DNA from: Planctomycetota bacterium
GTDB lineage: Bacteria > Planctomycetota > Planctomycetia > Gemmatales > Gemmataceae
Reading direction: 5' to 3'
DNA length: 39,311 nucleotides
Assembly: GCA_021413735.1 (NCBI GenBank)
Contig: JAIOPV010000212.1
Span: 1-39,311, forward strand
The notes under the pieces were generated by a model. It did not search any database. It was not told where the DNA came from and was given only the letters and a program-made list of their open reading frames with translations. Both the position numbers and the translations under genes were made by a program. This document shows, piece after piece, positions 3,389-34,739 of this stretch. Each line of letters starts with the position of its first letter. Position 1 is the first letter of the stretch.

Positions 3389-4261
3389 ATGGCATCCGAA
3401 GACGAAGATGATCCGCTTGGACCGGCTCGGTTGCTCCTCGTGACCGCGCTGCGACTCGGCACCAAGGCCGCTGGTACCGAAGATCACAACGGCTGCTACG
3501 AACTGCTCGCGTGTGCGGCTCGTCTTGCCCGCAAGGTGAAGGGGCTTGGCGAAGTCGCCGACTTCCGGCTTGAACGCGCCCTCGACGATGCCGAGAACGC
3601 CGGCGAACCAGAGCAACAAGCCGAGGAGATGCAGGCCGCCATCGAAGGCTTACTCGGCGACGAGGACGAACCCGAAGCGGAAGACGAGCCAGCGGTTCTC
3701 GCTGATCCGCTCGCCGCGATGCAGACGTACATCGGAATGGCCATCTCCATCGGTGCCCCCGCGTACAACACCGGCGACCATCAGGGTTGCTTCGACGTGT
3801 ATTCGTGCACCGCTCGCATGATCCTCGCGACGATCGCCGCCGGTCCGGAAGAAGCACGGACGAAACTGCGAGAAGCGCTCGATAGGGTCGAGAAACTCGA
3901 CGACCCCAACGAGCAGGCGTGGGTGATGCGAAACGCCTTCGACGCGATCGGCGAGATGGGCGGCCCAGCGCTGAGTAGCCGAGAGGTGCAGCTCTACTTG
4001 TCGCTGGCAATTCGCCTCGGTGCCCCTGCTTACAACGCGGGCGATCACCGTGGCTGTTACGAAACGTATGCGTGTGCCGCCCGCTTCCTCGTGAATGCTC
4101 AGTCGGTGCCAGACGCTACGAAGGAAGCTCTGCGAACTGCGTTGGAGCAAGCCAGTGTCCTGCAGAATGTGACCAGACAGGCGTGGGTCATGCGCGAGGC
4201 CTTTGACGCACTGTTGCCGAAATCGGCCGACCCTGGTGCCCCCGACCAATCTTCAACCTGA
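3389..4261 (+). CDS. Triple-repeat protein of unknown function (GDHxGC repeats)
   Basis: Not a family I can name. The 290-residue protein is almost wholly three repeats of about 80 residues. Each begins with a hydrophobic helix (for example LYLSLAIRLGAPAYN), continues with the motif G-D-H-x-G-C-[YF]-x4-[AS]-C-x-A-R (first repeat EDHNGC), and ends in a charged helix with WVMR-x-[AN]-FDA-type residues in repeats 2 and 3. Every repeat therefore has a Cys-x5-Cys pair inside one predicted helix. A strongly acidic linker (about residues 88-107) separates repeat 1 from repeat 2. There is no signal peptide or membrane segment, so it is probably cytoplasmic. An all-helical repeat scaffold or a metal/heme-binding role is possible but unproven. 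It stands alone between the E2 gene and a strong hairpin. Confidence 0.72.
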   Translation: MASEDEDDPLGPARLLLVTALRLGTKAAGTEDHNGCYELLACAARLARKVKGLGEVADFRLERALDDAENAGEPEQQAEEMQAAIEGLLGDEDEPEAEDEPAVLADPLAAMQTYIGMAISIGAPAYNTGDHQGCFDVYSCTARMILATIAAGPEEARTKLREALDRVEKLDDPNEQAWVMRNAFDAIGEMGGPALSSREVQLYLSLAIRLGAPAYNAGDHRGCYETYACAARFLVNAQSVPDATKEALRTALEQASVLQNVTRQAWVMREAFDALLPKSADPGAPDQSST

Positions 4262-4270
4262 TGCGCAGTG

Positions 4271-4321
4271 CTGTCTGTTTTGGTGACTCAAGCCAGAGCC
4301 CTTTGCCATCAAAACAGACAG
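4271..4321 (+). terminator. Long hairpin downstream of the triple-repeat gene
   Basis: A 12-bp perfect stem (CTGTCTGTTTTG at 4271-4282 with CAAAACAGACAG at 4310-4321) extends inward by about 3 more pairs, one of them G-U, around a loop of about 21 bases. It starts 9 bases after the stop of the preceding gene and ends 65 bases before the next start. There is no clean U-tract, so intrinsic termination is inferred from stem length and position. Confidence 0.5.
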
Positions 4322-4386
4322 TTTCATCGGGTTCGTGTATCAGTCCTGTACGCAGCAGTATCGACACCATGAAGCGGAGTTCTGAT

Positions 4387-5736
4387 ATGTCACGTTTGCG
4401 TTCGCACAGTTGGCTGCTGAACCGCCGTCACGTTCTCCGCGGCGTCGGCGTTTCGCTCGCCTTGCCGCTGCTCGACTGCATGCGACCGCTGCTTGCCGCA
4501 GACAAAGCTGTGCGACCGAAACGCAGCGTGTTCATCTACCTGCCCAATGGCGTCAACACAGTTGCCTACGAGATGCCGACGGCGGGAGCAGATTACAAGA
4601 TGTCGAAGCCACTCGCGGCTCTCGAAAAGCACCGCAATGTCATTACGCCGATCAGCGGCTTGCACCACCCGCACGGGCTCGGCCACCACCATAATTGCAG
4701 CACCATCTGGCTGACCGGCGGCAAGATCGGGCCATCGGAACGCAACACGATTTCGGTCGATCAACTCATGGCACAGGTCACGGCACCGCAAACGCGGTAC
4801 TCGTCAATCGAGATGAGCAATCAGGGGCACTCGCTGGCGTACAGTGCTGACGGCATCCAGTTGCCCGCGACCGGCAGCCCTGGGGTCGTGTTCCGCGATA
4901 TGTTCACGGAACCGCAGGGTGGCATCGCGAAACAACGCCGGGGATTGCAGCGTCGCGAGAGCATCCTCGACGCTGTTCTTGAGGAATCGAATTCGCTCGG
5001 CAACCAACTTGGCAAGGACGACCGTGGCCGGCTGGAACAATACCTGACGTCGGTTCGCGAAGTCGAGATTCGCACACAGCGAGCCGACAAGTGGCTCGAC
5101 ACGCCACGACCGAAAGTGGACCCCGGCGTGCAATCGCAACTGAATCGCGACATCTCACTGGAACGCCTCGGTGAGTACCTTCGTACGATGTACGACATCA
5201 TGGTGCTGGCCTTCCAGACCGACATGACCCGCGTGGCAACGTTCAGCACCGGCAACGAGGGGCAAGGTCCAGCCGTGCCCGAAATCGGCGTGAAGCAAGA
5301 CCGCCATTCGCTTTCGCACCACAACGGCAACCCGAAGCTCATGCAGGATCTGCTGGATAGCGACGCCTTCAACATCAAGCAGTTCAGCTACTTCCTCGAT
5401 CGGCTCAGCGAAGTGAAGGACGCCGACGGCCCGCTGCTCGACACGACGATGGCACTCTTCGGCAGCGGCATGGCCTATGGTCACAGTCACGGCAACGCGA
5501 GCTTGCCGATCATCCTCGCGGGCGGCACGCAACTCGGGCTGAAGCACGGCAAGCACGTCGACTTCAATCTCGTGAAGGATTTCAAGGGCTATGACAAGCT
5601 CGTCGGCATCTACTTCAACCCGGTGAACAGCAAGGCAGTGCTGAGCAATGTGCTGCTGACGATGGCTCAGAAGATGGACGTGAAGACGGAGAAGTTCGCC
5701 GACAGCAACGGGGTGATCTCGGAGGTGTTGGCGTGA
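4387..5736 (+). CDS. DUF1552 family exported protein
   Basis: Member of the DUF1552 family, abundant in Planctomycetes and relatives and of unknown biochemical function; it is usually encoded near DUF1592/1588/1585 cytochrome-type proteins, as here. The N-terminus (residues 1-33) is a twin-arginine-like export signal: NRRHVLRGVGVSL, then a hydrophobic stretch ending LLAAD. The mature part contains family-typical features such as RSVFIYLPNGVN near the start, the His-rich HPHGLGHHHNCS, and GHSHGNASLPIILAGG near the C-terminus, which suggests a metal-binding hydrolase-like fold (inference). I chose ATG 4387 because GGAG lies 7 bases upstream; ATG 4369 has no ribosome site, and the 4261 start would run through the hairpin. 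Its stop overlaps the next gene's GTG by 4 bases. Confidence 0.88.
   Translation: MSRLRSHSWLLNRRHVLRGVGVSLALPLLDCMRPLLAADKAVRPKRSVFIYLPNGVNTVAYEMPTAGADYKMSKPLAALEKHRNVITPISGLHHPHGLGHHHNCSTIWLTGGKIGPSERNTISVDQLMAQVTAPQTRYSSIEMSNQGHSLAYSADGIQLPATGSPGVVFRDMFTEPQGGIAKQRRGLQRRESILDAVLEESNSLGNQLGKDDRGRLEQYLTSVREVEIRTQRADKWLDTPRPKVDPGVQSQLNRDISLERLGEYLRTMYDIMVLAFQTDMTRVATFSTGNEGQGPAVPEIGVKQDRHSLSHHNGNPKLMQDLLDSDAFNIKQFSYFLDRLSEVKDADGPLLDTTMALFGSGMAYGHSHGNASLPIILAGGTQLGLKHGKHVDFNLVKDFKGYDKLVGIYFNPVNSKAVLSNVLLTMAQKMDVKTEKFADSNGVISEVLA
5721..5725 (+). promoter_or_regulatory. Ribosome binding site fixing the GTG 5733 start
   Basis: GGAGG, 7 bases before GTG 5733, which itself overlaps the TGA of the DUF1552 gene. 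It matters because it places translation initiation upstream of the palindromic element, so the element is expected to be translated. Confidence 0.6.
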
Positions 5737-7085
5737 AGCACACTATCCGAACCCAACCCGAACGGTTGGCCTTGGTTTTGACCTCCCCCCTTGTGGGGGA
5801 GGTCGACGCGAAGCGGCGGGTGGGGGGTGAAGCCTGCCGAGATGTTGCAGCTTTACCCCCCACCGTCTCGCAAAGCCTCGCCACCTCCCCCACAAGGGGG
5901 GAGGCCAAAACCAGAACGCACCTGCCTCGGTTGGTTGCCTTCGCCGCACTGGGTTTCAGTGCGATGGCGTTCTTTGCGTTCGCACAGGAGAAAAAGGAGA
6001 CGCTAGCTCCAGCGACCGTACCCACCAAGGAAGCCGTCGCGAGGGCACCGAAGTTCGTGTCGGCCGATGCGGGGAAGTACATCTCCGGCGAACTCGTGTT
6101 CGTTGATGGCGTGAATCGTCGCGGGGCGTTGCGGCTCGACGGCGACGGCCCCATGCACTACTTCGCGATGCTGCCTTACGGCATGGTCGGCTACAACGGA
6201 GCACCCGCCGAGCTACGTGACGTGCCGCTGGGCACGCACCTTCACGGGTACTTCCACCTACCGCCTCTGGGCGAGGAAGACACCATCCCGCCGCATCAGC
6301 GAGCAAATCCGAACAACCACGCACTGACGCTCGAAGACGACTTCAGCTATTACCAGCGTCGCGGGCAGGCGTGGAAGATCGTGGCGGTCGACTTGAAGAA
6401 GAACAAGCTCGATGTCGCCGCGACCGGCAAGCCCGTGAAGGACGGCATCAACGGCAAGTACACGTTTGACATCGACACGAACACTCGCGTCTGGAAGGGT
6501 CGGTCGATCGTCGGTCTGGATAGCCTTACTCCTGAGCAAACGGTGCAACTGAACCTGAGCTGGGCACAGGGAGCGGTCAACAAGGAGTTCGTCGTCACCG
6601 ATGTGTGGCTCGACGACGACGCCCGCAAGTTCGCGACGGAGATGCAACGGCGACGGAACGTGCGATATCAGCAACAACGCTGGCTGCCAGGCTGGATCGA
6701 CAGCATCGAACACTTCGACTACGGCGGCGCGATCATCACGATCACGCTGTTCGGCGGCATGGATCAATCGCTTTATGACGACATGAAGGCGAGCCGTGAA
6801 ACGGGCTACTGGGTCGCCACCGCAGAGAAGACGTTGCGGACGTGGTTTCACCGTGCGGATCGCAAAGTGGGTCGCGTGCAGGAGTGGAAGGAGATCGAGA
6901 ACCCGCCGCTGGGCAGCAGTGGGATTCAGGTGAAGTTGAAGTTCGCGGAGGTGCTGGAAGGCTACCGGCCTGGTCGCAACGTTCGCCTCAAGTGCGACCG
7001 CTGGGCGTTCGTGACGATGCCGTTCGAGGAGCGTGTGAAGTCGATCGAAGAGCAGAAGCGTTCGGCCGTCATGAGCTTGCCGTGA
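5733..7085 (+). CDS. Exported protein of unknown function with a palindromic repeat in its N-terminus
   Basis: No named family recognised. Residues 1-13 form a short polar start; residues 14-60 are encoded by a palindromic DNA element (LTSPLVGEV ... SLATSPTRGE); residues 65-84 are a hydrophobic export segment ending AFFAFAQ. If the element is removed, the first 13 residues and the hydrophobic core together make a normal signal peptide, so the element appears to have inserted in the n-region without breaking the frame. The mature part (about residues 85-450) opens with GELVFVDGVNRRGALRLDG, suggestive of a beta-barrel, and is rich in charged and aromatic residues. The GTG start is supported by GGAGG and by the 4-base overlap with the DUF1552 stop. 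Its position between DUF1552 and DUF1592 genes suggests a surface-associated role in the same system, but this is inference. Confidence 0.78.
   Translation: MKHTIRTQPERLALVLTSPLVGEVDAKRRVGGEACRDVAALPPTVSQSLATSPTRGEAKTRTHLPRLVAFAALGFSAMAFFAFAQEKKETLAPATVPTKEAVARAPKFVSADAGKYISGELVFVDGVNRRGALRLDGDGPMHYFAMLPYGMVGYNGAPAELRDVPLGTHLHGYFHLPPLGEEDTIPPHQRANPNNHALTLEDDFSYYQRRGQAWKIVAVDLKKNKLDVAATGKPVKDGINGKYTFDIDTNTRVWKGRSIVGLDSLTPEQTVQLNLSWAQGAVNKEFVVTDVWLDDDARKFATEMQRRRNVRYQQQRWLPGWIDSIEHFDYGGAIITITLFGGMDQSLYDDMKASRETGYWVATAEKTLRTWFHRADRKVGRVQEWKEIENPPLGSSGIQVKLKFAEVLEGYRPGRNVRLKCDRWAFVTMPFEERVKSIEEQKRSAVMSLP
5774..5912. repeat. Palindromic element, coding copy 1 (SPLVGEV type)
   Basis: About 139 bp with two arms of roughly 60 bp that are imperfect reverse complements: the left arm begins GGTTTTGACCTCCCCCC and the right arm ends GGGGAGGCCAAAACC. 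Each arm also holds a smaller palindrome around CCTTGTGGGGGAGG. It lies wholly inside the 5733-7085 gene and is read as LTSPLVGEV through SLATSPTRGE. A second, diverged copy lies at 32788-32927. It resembles REP/RPE-type palindromic elements in organisation; no transposase is adjacent. Confidence 0.85.
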
Positions 7086-7100
7086 GTACGTGTCTTGGTT

Positions 7101-7320
7101 TTCACCCCGAAGGGGTGGGACAACCTAGCCCAGGGCAAGCCGAAGGCGCCGCCCTGGGAAATGGATCCGTGAATCTTTGCACCCTGAAGGGGTGCGACAA
7201 GGGGCATGCGGTCGTTGTCGCACCCCTTCAGGGTGCATTCTCTTTTGTGATGCCAACCCAGGGCGGCGACGGCTTCGCCGTCTTGCCCTGGGCTGGGTTG
7301 TCCTACCCCTTCGGGGTGAA
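7101..7320. repeat. Nested palindromic repeat made of four related units
   Basis: Fills the gap between two plus-strand genes. The outer arms (7101-7158 and 7257-7320) are near-perfect reverse complements beginning TTCACCCCGAAGGGGT and containing CAGCCCAGGGCAAG-like sequence. Inside lies a perfect 23-bp inverted repeat (7178-7200 with 7215-7237). All four arms carry the same core, CACCC(C/T)GAAGGGGT followed by GACAA, two in each orientation. It could act as a transcript hairpin or attenuator between the two genes. Such structures fit a dispersed REP-like family; no mobile gene is adjacent. Confidence 0.85.
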
Positions 7321-13005: not shown

Positions 13006-14220
13006 ATGGAGATCGACGGCCCCGAATCGCTGAATCAACTCGTGACGACCGCCGTGCTCGGTGCGGGCTTCCGCAGAGCCACGTTCGCCGGAGTGACACG
13101 CGGAAACACAGCTTCCCCGTGGGTGCGGGTTGTCGTGCGACCGGTCGAACTCCGCGGCGAACGCTGTCTTCAGTTCTCGTATTTCGACGCCAAGAAAGAC
13201 ACCACGCGCAACTTTTTGCCCACCGAGGCAACCACACCGCTGAGTGAAGTGCTGGCAGTCGGCTTCTCGGGCATTCACATCGCAACCGATGCTGAGGAAC
13301 TCGACCTTCGCACCACGAAGAAGGGCAAGGTGCTCGTCGGTTGGCGTGCGGTGAGCGGTGCCCCGGTGGAACTTGAACCGCACAATCGTGTCAAAGATGT
13401 GCCGTTGCCAGAGGGTCGGGCTGACCGATTGCTCGAAGTCATGGGCATCGCTACGGCCGATGGCAAAGTGCGGCCGACAATGCGGGCGAAGTTCACGCAG
13501 ATCAACGAGTTCCTGAAGCAACTTCGCCATGCTCTCGACGCTGCAGAACTGCGCGATCTCGGTCGCCCGGTCGAGATTCTCGATTGCGGTTGCGGGTCAA
13601 GCTACCTCACGCTCGCGGCTCATCACTATCTCAACAACGTGCTGGCGATTCCGGCCCATGTTCTCGGCGTCGATGTGAACGAGGAAGTGATTCGCAAGAG
13701 CGCCGAGCGGTCGGAGCGAATCGCGGCAAACGGCTTGTCGTTCGCGTGCGGTCGGATCGGTGGCATCGACGTGAAGCCTGACATCGTGCTGGCCCTCCAT
13801 GCGTGCGACACCGCAACTGATGATGCCATTGCACAGGCGATTCGCGGCGAAGCGAAGATGTTGTTGAGTGTGCCGTGCTGTCATCATGCGTTGAACCGCG
13901 AACTGCGTGCCGACGGCCCGACGGAAGTGCTGCGACCATTGTTGCGTCACGGGATTCTGCGAGAACGCACAGCCGATCTCGTAACCGATGCCTTCCGTGC
14001 GCTTGCGTTGCGGATTGTGGGATATCGAACCGATGTGGTCGAGTTCGTGAGCACGGAACACACGGCCCGCAACCTGATGATTCGTGCCATTCGCGGGGCG
14101 TCGGTTGGCGAAGCGGTGCATGTGTCCGAGTATCGCGAGATGAAACGTTTCTGGGGCGTGACTCCGTACATCGAGACGGCACTGGGCGAACCGTTCACGA
14201 AAATGGTGAATGTGGTGTAG
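13006..14220 (+). CDS. SAM-dependent methyltransferase of the Methyltransf_32 type
   Basis: Class I methyltransferase. The SAM-binding motif I is EILDCGCGSSYLTL (about residues 188-201), motif II is VLGVDVNEE, and downstream come VLALHACDTATDDAI and LSVPCCHHALN, which are characteristic of the Methyltransferase domain 32 group. The N-terminal 150 residues form a separate conserved region seen in some family members, ending in a linker before KVRPTMRAKFTQINEFLKQL. The target is unknown; RNA or a small molecule are both possible. No signal peptide. ATG 13006 is preceded only by weak ribosome-site sequence. It is followed by a palindromic repeat and then hutI on the same strand, with no evident functional link. 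Confidence 0.82.
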   Translation: MEIDGPESLNQLVTTAVLGAGFRRATFAGVTRGNTASPWVRVVVRPVELRGERCLQFSYFDAKKDTTRNFLPTEATTPLSEVLAVGFSGIHIATDAEELDLRTTKKGKVLVGWRAVSGAPVELEPHNRVKDVPLPEGRADRLLEVMGIATADGKVRPTMRAKFTQINEFLKQLRHALDAAELRDLGRPVEILDCGCGSSYLTLAAHHYLNNVLAIPAHVLGVDVNEEVIRKSAERSERIAANGLSFACGRIGGIDVKPDIVLALHACDTATDDAIAQAIRGEAKMLLSVPCCHHALNRELRADGPTEVLRPLLRHGILRERTADLVTDAFRALALRIVGYRTDVVEFVSTEHTARNLMIRAIRGASVGEAVHVSEYREMKRFWGVTPYIETALGEPFTKMVNVV

Positions 14221-14224
14221 CGGT

Positions 14225-14268
14225 CGCCCCAACGGGGCGACGGTTTTGGACGCCGCCCCGTTGGGGCG
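14225..14268. repeat. Short inverted repeat between methyltransferase and hutI
   Basis: Two 15-base arms, CGCCCCAACGGGGCG (14225-14239) and CGCCCCGTTGGGGCG (14254-14268), are exact reverse complements, and each arm is itself a small hairpin around CGCCCC/GGGGCG. It begins 5 bases after the stop of the preceding gene. It can form either one long stem or two short ones. It looks like another dispersed palindromic family, possibly serving as a terminator. Confidence 0.75.
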
Positions 14269-14298
14269 GACGCTAAACGTTCGCGATTGGGACTACAC

Positions 14299-15516: not shown

Positions 15517-15584
15517 GGTTGGGAGGGCGAGGCTCCTGCCGAGCCTTTTGCGTTTGGCTCGGCAGGAGCCTCGCCCTCCCAACC
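15517..15584. terminator. Perfect 29-bp hairpin between convergent hutI and Cys-rich gene
   Basis: Left arm 15517-15545 (starts GGTTGGGAGGGCGAGG) and right arm 15556-15584 are exact reverse complements around a 10-base loop, TTTTGCGTTT. The left arm starts at the base after the hutI stop codon, and the right arm ends 8 bases before the end of the convergent gene. Position suggests a bidirectional terminator. Its GGGAGGGCGAGGCTCCTGCC arm looks like a dispersed repeat recruited to this role. Confidence 0.75.
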
Positions 15585-26304: not shown

Positions 26305-26376
26305 GTTTAGCCGCGACTCGAAGAGAAGCGTGACCAATGGGCTCGCGTCACGCTTCTCTTCGAGTCGCGGCTAAAC
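26305..26376 (+). terminator. Perfect 30-bp hairpin after the peroxiredoxin gene
   Basis: Left arm 26305-26334 (starts GTTTAGCCGCGACTCG) and right arm 26347-26376 are exact reverse complements around a 12-base loop. The right arm is followed by ATTTTGTAG, a short T-run on the plus strand. It begins 8 bases after the stop. The arm length and perfection suggest a dispersed repeat acting as a terminator. Confidence 0.75.
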
Positions 26377-31990: not shown

Positions 31991-33676
31991 TCACACACCA
32001 GAAATCGGACCATCGGCGACACGCAGGGCGAGATCTCGGCGACTGCGTTCTGATGAACTCTGCGTAAGCTGGTAACCCGCCTCAACCGCCGAGTGCCCTT
32101 CAACTGAGAGAGCAGCGAGAAGCCTTGCGAGGTCACGCTGGCGATCAGCCGACGAGACTTTTCGCGCGAGCCGCACCTTTGTGACATCGCGAACACTCAC
32201 GGCACCCTGCGTCGCACCGAATGCTGCGAGAACCGGTCCGATGGGCCGACAGCCCGCATCGTGGAGTTGTCGCAGCGTGCGGCCGAGTTGTTCAGCGGTC
32301 GCGGTTTCGATTTCGCCGCCGATCGGCTCGCCAGCAGTTTCGTGCAGTGCAAACCACTCGGCAGACGCGAAGTTGGTGAGTCTCTGGCCGAACGCGAAGA
32401 GTCGCGGGGCTGGGACGCCATAGCGTTCGAGGTGGAAGAGCAACCGACCAAGCGTGACGCCCGGTGAACGCCACGAGCGGCCCTGCAACTTCGCCTTCAG
32501 CCGAGAGAGCGGCGAGAACGAGCGACCGCGAATCAACACCGCATCACGGCCGCCGGCAAGTTTAACTCGGAGCGTGCCCGGTTCACACCCGTAGAACGGA
32601 GCGGCGACAGCGGGTTTCGGCCAGATCGCAGCGACAGCGGGCACCGCACACACAGCTTCTTCAGCGAGCCACACGAGCCGTTGAGCAGACGCAGTGACAA
32701 CGGGTTGTCGCTGATCGCGAATCGACCGCCGACCACGAATCTTCCTGGCAGCATGTTCGATTTGCTTGGCGAGATGCGTGAGTGTGATTTTGCCCTCTCC
32801 CCTTATGGGGGAGGTGGCGAGGCTTTGCGAGCCGGTGGGGGGTGTAGCCACAGGATCACCGGAGGCATACCTCCCACCCGCTCCTCGAAGACTCGGAGCG
32901 ACCTCCCCCACAAGGGGGGAGGTCAAAGACAGGGAGCGAGAAGGTGTCGAGAAGTTCTGGAGAGCCGCACGCAGAACCCGCAATCGTTCGCGAGGCGAAG
33001 CCAACTCTTCGGCGACGGATGCGTGAAGTGCCGCGAGTGCGTGGATGCGTTCGGCTAACGGCACGGGTTGCATCCGACGAGCCGATTGCCAGTCGATCGG
33101 CGTGATCTCTCCCCGCTGCCGTGAAACCAGCAGATGCTTTGCGGTGAGGTCCGGCGTCGTCAGCCCTGCATTGTGCAATCTTGCGATGAGATGCCCAAGA
33201 CGGTTCGCGAGGTCTCGGCGAGCCACGAGTGACAACGCATTGTTACTCAACACTTCTCGCAGATCGCATGACTTGGCGACTTCTTCCACAAGCAGGAACG
33301 AGCGTCCGCGTGCGTCTTCGCCGACAGCGACCCAACGCGGAGCGGGCAGCGAATTCGCCATCAATTCCTTGAGGATCGCGGCTTCACGCACGCACCGCGA
33401 CGACCACCCGAAGCCAAGAAGCCGATTGCGAAGACGTTCCCGCCAAGTAACAGAGTGCTGTCGCTTCAGGTAGAACGCCGTGGGTTGCCCAGGCAGCACG
33501 ACCCGCATCACATGCCGATCTGGATGCCCACAGACAACCTCGCCGGGCAGTTCAAGAAAGCCCGCAGCCGAGTCGATGCCAAGAGCAACGAACCCCGCGG
33601 CGAACAACGGATTCACTCGGACCCATCCGCCAACGCTGGAAGCAACCGGACGGAAAACGACATCGTTACGCGGCAC
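31991..33676 (-). CDS. Tandem kinase-like (WaaP-related) protein carrying a palindromic repeat
   Basis: 561 residues. Residues about 40-240 are a kinase-like domain: FYLKRQHSV (Lys71), EAAILKEL (Glu98), TTPDLTAKHLLV (Asp176) and PIDWQSARR (Asp195), the pattern of WaaP/KdkA kinases with Pro in place of the usual Gly or Lys before the catalytic Asp. Residues about 250-297 are encoded by a palindromic repeat (LTSPLVGEV ... SLATSPIRGE). Residues about 330-520 are a second, more diverged copy (VLIRGRSF, YGVPAPRLFAFG, RQLHDAGCRPIGP, SVRDVTKVRL) in which the catalytic-loop Asp and Lys are not retained. The first domain may be active and the second regulatory (inference). GTG 33676 has GAGG about 7 bases upstream and overlaps the GT9 stop by 11 bases. 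Confidence 0.83.
   Translation of the reverse strand: MPRNDVVFRPVASSVGGWVRVNPLFAAGFVALGIDSAAGFLELPGEVVCGHPDRHVMRVVLPGQPTAFYLKRQHSVTWRERLRNRLLGFGWSSRCVREAAILKELMANSLPAPRWVAVGEDARGRSFLLVEEVAKSCDLREVLSNNALSLVARRDLANRLGHLIARLHNAGLTTPDLTAKHLLVSRQRGEITPIDWQSARRMQPVPLAERIHALAALHASVAEELASPRERLRVLRAALQNFSTPSRSLSLTSPLVGEVAPSLRGAGGRYASGDPVATPPTGSQSLATSPIRGEGKITLTHLAKQIEHAARKIRGRRSIRDQRQPVVTASAQRLVWLAEEAVCAVPAVAAIWPKPAVAAPFYGCEPGTLRVKLAGGRDAVLIRGRSFSPLSRLKAKLQGRSWRSPGVTLGRLLFHLERYGVPAPRLFAFGQRLTNFASAEWFALHETAGEPIGGEIETATAEQLGRTLRQLHDAGCRPIGPVLAAFGATQGAVSVRDVTKVRLARKVSSADRQRDLARLLAALSVEGHSAVEAGYQLTQSSSERSRRDLALRVADGPISGV
32788..32927. repeat. Palindromic element, coding copy 2 (SPLVGEV type)
   Basis: About 140 bp. 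On the plus strand it begins TTTTGCCCTCTCCCC and ends GGGGGGAGGTCAAA; the arms are imperfect reverse complements and match the arms of the copy at 5774-5912. The surrounding gene is on the minus strand and reads through it as LTSPLVGEV to SLATSPIRGE, the same frame as copy 1. The central part is diverged from copy 1 and less perfectly paired. Confidence 0.83.
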
Positions 33677-34739
33677 GGATCACCTCGCTTTCCGTCAGCA
33701 GAGGGAAGCGAGTCAACAGTCGCTCGGCTGTGGTGAAGACGTCGGTCGGCATCAGTTCGCGCATGCAGCGATGGTGGTCAATTGGGCATACTCGCTGCTG
33801 GCAGGGGCCGCACGGCAACTTCTTCTGCAGATGCACGGCCTTCTCGAAATACGTTTCCGTCCATTCGATGTGCGTGGGGCCGAACAGCGTGACTACGGGG
33901 CGATTGAAGGCGGCCGCGAAGTGACGCGGCCCGCTGTCCGTGGTGACGAGCAAGTTCGCACGCTTCACGAGAGCCTTAGTCAGACCGAGTGACAACGCGG
34001 TGTCACTGAGCGAGTAAGCGTGCGGCGTGCGGCTTTCATCGGCAATGCGTTGTGCCAACGCGCGTTCACTAGGACCGCACAGCACAACGACTCCGCAACC
34101 GAGTCTGGCGGTCAACATGCGAGCGAGTTGTGCGAAGTGCGTCGTCGGCCAGTGCTTCGCGGCACCGAATGCCGCGCCGGGATTTAGAGCCACCACACGC
34201 GGATATCGCTTCAGATCAAAGCGTTCCCACACGGCGGTCGCGGCGGCCTCGTCCTTTGGTGTGGTGAACAGTTCCATCTTGTTGCCGGGGTCGCCAGTCC
34301 CGAGCGCAACCGCGAGCCGGTTGTAGTCGTCGATCATCGGCGTCGGCACGAACTTGCCGCGTTCGTCCGTGGCGTAGTGGAGCCGATCGCTCAGCAGGAA
34401 GCTGCGACCATAGCGAGCGAAGCCCACTACGCGACGACAACCACCGAGGCTGGCAAGCGCTGCCGTGCGAAATGAGTTCGAGAACAGCACGGCAGCATCG
34501 GGGCGGTTCGCTCGAAGCTTCGTTCCGACTGCGAACAATCGCTGCGTGCGTGGGCCGCGTTTGTCACTGAGAATCACGTCCGCGAACCACGGTGAACCGG
34601 CCAGCACATCTGCGACGTAGGGCTTGCACACTGCGACGAGTTCCGCATCGGGGAACGCTGTGCGCACGGCTCGCACCGCGGGCGTGGCCATCACCACGTC
34701 GCCAATCCAGTTCGGCAGAAACAGCGCGATCCTTCGCAA
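33666..34739 (-). CDS. waaF: ADP-heptose:LPS heptosyltransferase family protein (GT9)
   Basis: 357 residues. The GT9 pattern is clear: LPNWIGDVVMATPAVRAVR (N-terminal), LNPGAAFGAAKHWPTTHFAQ (nucleotide-side region), TTDSGPRHFAAAFNRP and LFGPTHIEWTETY (C-terminal). The end also has CGPCQQRVCPIDHHRCM, a Cys motif frequent in WaaF homologues. It would transfer heptose to the inner core, using the product of hldE upstream. The start codon is TTG 34739, with GGAG 7 bases upstream; longer readings to 35075 overlap hldE in another frame and look non-native. It begins 14 bases after hldE ends and overlaps the next gene by 11 bases. Confidence 0.9.
   Translation of the reverse strand: MRRIALFLPNWIGDVVMATPAVRAVRTAFPDAELVAVCKPYVADVLAGSPWFADVILSDKRGPRTQRLFAVGTKLRANRPDAAVLFSNSFRTAALASLGGCRRVVGFARYGRSFLLSDRLHYATDERGKFVPTPMIDDYNRLAVALGTGDPGNKMELFTTPKDEAAATAVWERFDLKRYPRVVALNPGAAFGAAKHWPTTHFAQLARMLTARLGCGVVVLCGPSERALAQRIADESRTPHAYSLSDTALSLGLTKALVKRANLLVTTDSGPRHFAAAFNRPVVTLFGPTHIEWTETYFEKAVHLQKKLPCGPCQQRVCPIDHHRCMRELMPTDVFTTAERLLTRFPLLTESEVIRAA

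Follow-up and report, generated by a model that had tools for sequence, protein, structure and literature searches.

To our knowledge, palindromic repeats that lie in frame within protein-coding genes are known chiefly from Rickettsia and Wolbachia, together with scattered intragenic REPs. In Rickettsia, the tRNA ribosyltransferase-isomerase QueA is among the hosts of the elements RPE-4 and RPE-7, and the R. japonica paper that reports this, in the portion of its text covered here, leaves undecided the choice between hot spots for insertion and diverged old inserts (PMC3767692). For REPs, the covered part of a 2013 survey gives intragenic examples from organisms such as Opitutus terrae, Thauera and Rickettsia conorii, including some at N-termini, describes two Xanthomonas species in which different REPs occupy about the same position in recB, reports REPs in Planctomycetes, and adds that many N-terminal cases are possibly extragenic through wrong start annotation (PMC3733652). 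A 2024 review of MITEs, in the sections covered, regards it as “conceivable” that other prokaryotes have a similar mechanism (PMC10969869), and the covered portion of a further paper concerns CRISPR only (PMC4672568). Within this literature, whose coverage stops short of the gene list of the 2013 survey (Additional file 3 of PMC3733652), we found no earlier case of a palindrome inserted into a planctomycete gene.

The locus described here comes from a planctomycete. The whole stretch of DNA that was analysed, which we refer to as the window, is 39,311 nt long and corresponds to contig C245 of a 9.8-Mb draft genome in 293 contigs. The initial annotation of this DNA proposed that a palindrome had been inserted into the gene of an exported protein without disruption of the reading frame, in a way comparable to the Rickettsia palindromic elements. 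The existence of element-free homologues, the presence of further in-frame copies and the lack of a clear gene break, all described below, support that comparison.

Results

The element has a small hairpin arm at either end and a central stem. Its outer arms (5773–5803 and 5883–5913) are 31 nt each and 97% complementary, and a further inverted-repeat pair lies within them (5819–5833/5850–5864). This confirms the description of an inverted repeat of about 139 bp that lies wholly inside the coding sequence and can be read in frame without a stop, as both arms fall within an ORF that is open throughout (Table 1). Likewise, the GGAGG at 5721 and the 4-base overlap with the upstream stop are as they had been described, the GTG start occupying 5733–5735 and the upstream TGA 5734–5736. 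When folded as RNA, positions 5770–5916 reach −111.6 kcal/mol, compared with a mean of −60.5 (sd 4.26, z −12.0) for 200 dinucleotide shuffles, none of which (0/200) folds as well; Rfam matches over the element are all far below gathering scores. The palindrome is not a chance occurrence, because many copies exist in its own genome, the best other being 93% identical, and because the arm pattern, at ≤3 mismatches, gives 204 matches versus 5 with a reversed control. To the left, a local alignment to the end of a longer form of the repeat (see below), which is equalled by 8 of 1000 shuffles and tied by two other copies, suggests that the edge of the element may reach ~5752 instead of 5773. Other palindromes are also present in the window: a nested one that separates the host gene from the following gene (7101–7320), with a weak match to Acido-Lenti-1 RNA (26.5 vs a gathering score of 37 bits), and a perfect 29-nt inverted repeat just 3′ of an amidohydrolase ORF (15517–15584).

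Table 1. Features of the window that bear on the two in-frame copies of the repeat.
Feature	Position	Strand	Basis
Upstream gene, HXXSHH/DUF1552 family	4261..5736	+	PF07586, 271.4 bits; stop overlaps host start by 4 nt
GGAGG, possible ribosome-binding site of host gene	5721..5725	+	Direct reading; homologues have similar purine-rich context
Host gene, 450 aa, exported-type protein, no Pfam match	5733..7085	+	ORF; homologues at 50–82% identity
Possible left extension of element, weak	5752..5772	+	Local alignment to left end of long form
Core palindromic element, subfamily A	5773..5913	+	Inferred translation ~ residues 14–61 of host ORF; arms, fold, at least 80 related genomic copies
Hydrophobic signal-peptide-like core, residues 67–85	5931..5987	+	Direct reading; aligns with homologues' N-terminal cores
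Kinase-like gene (Kdo/WaaP family match)	31994..33679	−	PF06293, 65.2 bits; present in 19/19 genomes of genus
Second subfamily A copy of window	32785..32927	−	In frame, linker of kinase-like gene; orthologues, peptide alignment

Alignment of the homologues of the host gene, as far as can be read from the DNA, places their starts upstream of the site, with no element. Specifically, 15 loci have a homologue behind the same upstream gene (L053 and L055–L058 among them being distant, at 35–38% identity), and at 13 of these, all element-free, a start codon and the upstream stop share a 4-nt overlap; this outcome is favoured by the script, which chose the start lying furthest upstream near the stop, but the overlapping codons can be read directly in the DNA. 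At L037 the overlapping codon is TTG, with an ATG one codon later; the exceptions are L040, where the start lies 10 nt downstream, and L054, which gave no start call. Among ten aligned proteins, only that of the window has a long n-region. Its hydrophobic core, LVAFAALGFSAMAFFAFAQ (residues 67–85), lies downstream of the element and would be preceded by ~20 residues if the element were removed, and the closest homologue with this gene pair (L032) has ~21 residues ahead of the core; hence, the element adds ~47 residues between start and core. Because the start overlaps the stop in 13 of the 15 homologues, these residues are most likely translated. The core is apparently that of a signal peptide, on its own reading and on that of the homologues. 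Both flanks of the element belong to one conserved gene in a conserved neighbourhood, and what remains of the ORF stays open and aligns through to its end. No close homologue of the host gene was obtained from G016 or G022, the two nearest genomes, and the empty site is therefore known only from more distant ones. An AlphaFold model of the host protein is of low confidence (mean pLDDT 52.2, with residues 1–113 below 50), and nothing was drawn from it.

The window element gave 84 matches in its own genome, a number that counts both strands of a near-palindrome, and a second subfamily (B) gave 76. From the two subfamilies 80 distinct copies were examined, 75 of which are ≥120 bp long; the total of at least 80 is a lower bound because each search scored just 40 of its first-look candidates. 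Some copies sit at contig ends of the draft assembly. Rearranged-looking copies, with the arms in inverted order, were also observed (L085, L089, L129, L132 and L227). Across 41 genomes, DNA matches occur in 16, all of the same genus (16 of its 19 members, own genome included, and 0 of the 22 others). A protein search of 95 genomes also matched the element-like peptide in G088 and G091, which lie outside the 41 and belong to another genus of the same family; judged by these peptide matches, the repeat family is not strictly confined to the genus.

Most copies of the window's own genome fall outside the intragenic count, which comprises 12 of the 75 long copies and is a hand-picked set: eight were flagged by their flanks, and L001 (the window element), L004, L023 and L085 were added by reading of ORFs. 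The flank test scores codon usage on either side of a copy, is blind to frame and leaves most copies uncalled. In this genome it found 10 copies with coding-like flanks on one strand, eight of them in frame (L083, L086, L088, L089, L093, L094, L098 and L101) and two shifted (L028 and L106). The shifted pair was rejected as a case of gene breakage, both copies lying between genes, with the upstream stop codon right at the element's margin (L028:1490–1650 and L106:1497–1644). By our arithmetic, if frames are equally likely, the probability that all eight of eight fall in frame is ~1.5e-4. Neither the flank test nor inspection of the flagged loci revealed a clear case of a gene broken by an A or B copy.

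For RNase R, a heavy-metal P-type ATPase, QueA and MnmE, the insert is bracketed by matches to the protein family on either side. Comparison with solved relatives shows the added length as a gap in QueA (query 288 to 343, chain 272 to 278), in RNase R (query 385 to 443, chain 380 to 392) and in the P-type ATPase (query 498 to 551, chain 733 to 742). L023 was called intragenic from its orthologues and L001 from its start; for L004, L089, L094 and L098 the support is one-sided or weak, and L085 and L088 have no family match. A single-arm match was found inside MutL (L133). As a separate observation, the heavy-metal P-type ATPase and an HflK-like Band 7 domain are encoded by a single ORF, L093:2–3145.

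Similar insertions exist in other genomes. Among 54 loci from G022, G016 and G012, the flank test flagged six, of which L197, L201, L209, L215 and L227 are in frame and L203 is shifted; none of the 20 loci of G012 was flagged. L201 and L209, both from G022, were dropped since their ORFs look spurious (by eye, without homology comparison), and L203 was rejected as a gene-breaking copy since it has only spurious-looking ORFs. The in-frame copies of other genomes are found in a BioD-BioA-like gene of G022 (L197), a P-type ATPase of G016 (L215) and the QueA of G025 (L156), with a PP2C-like gene of G016 (L227) as a weaker case; L195, L208, L222, L233 and L245 were inspected and left out of the count. 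Within L197:278–2587, the element lies between the two domains of the BioD-BioA-like fusion. The genome search and its frame tally yield further in-frame copies in conserved genes, and the copies, as judged from ORFs and flanks, are not all intergenic. The frame that reads SPLxGEG is used by 11 of the 12 intragenic copies of the window's genome versus 64 of the 154 open frames of the remaining copies (binomial p 0.0005), and by 13 of 16 when the four copies from other genomes are added (binomial p 0.0014); with a hand-picked set and with relatedness ignored, this preference is only suggestive. Other frames in use read LPPCGGG (L004 and L215) and PPPWWGR (L197).

Several of these sites can be compared across the genus. 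At the linker of the kinase-like gene, which carries the second copy of the window, the orthologues of G016 and G022 have 12 nt between the flanking matches and no insert; G017 has the same element type at the same place, matched as peptide and as DNA, and G013 has a similar peptide. QueA was found in 18 of the 19 genomes of the genus and is insert-free in G016 and G022, which are nearest to the window's genome in the tree. In G025, across a split supported 100/99, QueA contains an insert that belongs to the same family but differs in its centre, for which the simplest reading would be two independent QueA insertions, transfer being the alternative. The QueA of G013 has a single-arm remnant at the insert site.

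RNase R was found in 19 of the 19 genomes of the genus, and its loop was compared in 17, those of G014 and G025 being left out as they are cut by contig ends. The loop is 54 nt long in G021 and G023 and 72–207 nt in the other 15, which fall into six sequence clusters (blastn single linkage, E 1e-3), the largest of these being partly joined by weak C/G-run matches. Counting only genes with both anchors, loop inverted repeats with a score ≥12 are present in 9 of 16 RNase R genes (outside the loop, 9 in 35,166 nt), in 7 of 18 MnmE genes (10 in 24,939 nt) and in 2 of 18 QueA genes (8 in 19,515 nt); the RNase R genes of G021 and G023 have no loop inverted repeat. The RNase R of G009 loses its frame within a palindrome of a different type (L144:2608–2822), where its C-run is one base shorter than that of G010, and this frameshift is either a sequence error or a real loss. 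Palindromes of a GTTTAGC...GCTAAAC type were observed in the window at 26305–26376 and 14215–14278, and similar ones lie beside a Y1 transposase gene (L257:1338–1437) and in the RNase R loops of G013 and G017.

It is informative to consider how such repeats might move. Subfamily A also has a long form of ~225 bp with the ends GGAACGTGTCCGAAATAAC, the left end being present in 12 copies and the right end in 11. Apart from some mismatches, these ends also delimit an IS at G000:C215 (~498–1809; in L290) that encodes an ISAzo13-family transposase (NF033519, 401.9 bits). By eye, 3-bp direct repeats flank six of nine long copies (not L014, L016 or L021) as well as the IS. The long form is thus a probable MITE of an ISAzo13-family IS. 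The window copy was rejected as a complete MITE because it lacks IS-type terminal repeats: its resemblance to the long-form ends is weak on the left and nil on the right, where 846 of 1000 shuffles do as well. Most other copies likewise lack such ends. Since core copies outnumber the long form and vary more, we infer that the IS ends captured a core and not the reverse. Mobilisation by a RAYT was rejected too, as the fetched flanks of 11 PF01797 (Y1 transposase) loci of the window's genome contain no convincing match to A or B, the best by blastn being 15 nt.

Discussion

The reading that we favour, and that we hold to be quite probable, is that a non-autonomous palindromic repeat of ~140 bp inserted in frame between the start codon and the signal-like core of the host gene and is now read as its translated n-region. 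A short repeat of this kind would have entered the gene with the frame kept, and the insert would be translated as an added and probably unstructured n-region of ~47 residues. The peptide would then be made and export would still work, with the insert persisting because the site tolerates a change in length. Insertions that break the frame would presumably be purged by selection, leaving in-frame copies in loops, linkers and termini.

It is also worth considering that the element may not be translated, the start lying downstream, for example at the TTG at 5931, and the hairpin serving as a 5′ regulatory or stabilising element between genes. The great stability of the hairpin and the position of most copies outside the intragenic count would suit such a role, as would the caution, in the covered part of the 2013 survey, that N-terminal REPs may be extragenic by wrong start annotation (PMC3733652). 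Nonetheless, we regard this as unlikely: the overlapping start lies upstream of the site in 13 of the 15 homologues, inspection by eye from 5913 to the hydrophobic core reveals no start codon with a clear ribosome-binding site, and a start at 5931 leaves no positively charged n-region. Improbable, too, is the idea that the inserts are domesticated, the mRNA hairpin or the peptide being functional (in translation pausing or expression tuning) and kept by selection. The recurrence of loop inverted repeats in RNase R (9/16) and MnmE (7/18) despite differing sequences could be read in this way, as could the preference for the SPLxGEG frame (11/12 vs 64/154), although tolerant loops struck by any active palindromes yield the same pattern and the intragenic set was chosen by hand; furthermore, the pattern in QueA is just 2/18 and the RNase R genes of G021 and G023 are without any.

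Two further possibilities deserve mention. The draft state of the genome, in which some copies sit at contig ends, and the RNase R of G009, out of frame within its palindrome, might point to a repeat misplaced in assembly or to a decaying or dead gene, but the flanks form one conserved gene in a conserved neighbourhood, the remaining ORF is open and aligned to its end, and comparable insertions are seen again in other assemblies, among them that of G022 with its four contigs, making this very unlikely. The element might instead be removed before or during translation, by splicing or ribosomal bypassing, which would account for insertion in conserved enzymes beside functional motifs. However, of the eight copies that lie within a gene and have coding flanks, all eight are open and in frame, a bias that counts against removal because the frame would then be irrelevant, and the Rfam matches over the element are far too low-scoring to help; we consider removal exceedingly improbable.

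Beyond the window, in-frame insertion of palindromic repeats, the reading that we favour, invites a broader proposal, toward which the observations lean: palindromic DNA may be a recurrent source of protein segments in this genus, with tolerant loops and linkers hit independently by unrelated families whose inserts stay in frame and shrink to single-arm scars of ~10 residues. If this is true, the question raised in Rickettsia, of hot spots versus one ancient insertion, would for this group be answered in favour of hot spots. The copies described here place in-frame palindromes in housekeeping enzymes of another phylum, with insert-free close relatives. The evidence includes QueA inserts that belong to one family yet occur in two distinct clades, an RNase R loop occupied by palindromes of unrelated sequence, what appear to be single-arm remnants, and an IS that is a candidate partner. 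In the literature covered, itself in part, we found no description in which all of these occur together: relatives free of the insert, unrelated palindromes at a single loop, single-arm remnants, an insert before a signal-like core with the start fixed by a gene overlap, and a link to ISAzo13. With these cases one can test how working proteins acquire peptide from mobile DNA and to what length a signal peptide's n-region can be extended. For annotation, peptides like SPLVGEG or SPTRGE in these proteins are marks of inserted repeats and not of conserved domains.

How, then, does the planctomycete repeat compare with described systems? Its ~225-bp subfamily A form resembles MITEs of the ISAzo13 family, whereas the window copy and most others are without those ends. 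Like intragenic REPs, the elements are short palindromes that decorate proteins, N-termini included; the REPs of the 2013 survey, as described in its covered part, are units of 20–40 bp with GTAG or CGTC tags (PMC3733652), whereas the full planctomycete element measures ~140 bp. There is also a likeness to the palindromic elements of Rickettsia and Wolbachia, which at 100–150 bp are of similar length, are likewise present in many copies (here at least 80) and lie in frame in unrelated genes, here those for RNase R, QueA, MnmE, a P-type ATPase and the kinase-like protein. QueA is a host gene both in Rickettsia (RPE-4/RPE-7) and in the planctomycete genus, a likeness at the level of the gene. 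Unlike the Rickettsia elements, those described here belong to another phylum, have GC-rich arms and are counted as intragenic in just 12 of 75 long copies. Compared by description, and with a likeness in mode intended and not membership, the planctomycete element is, by analogy, one that works like the Rickettsia palindromic elements.
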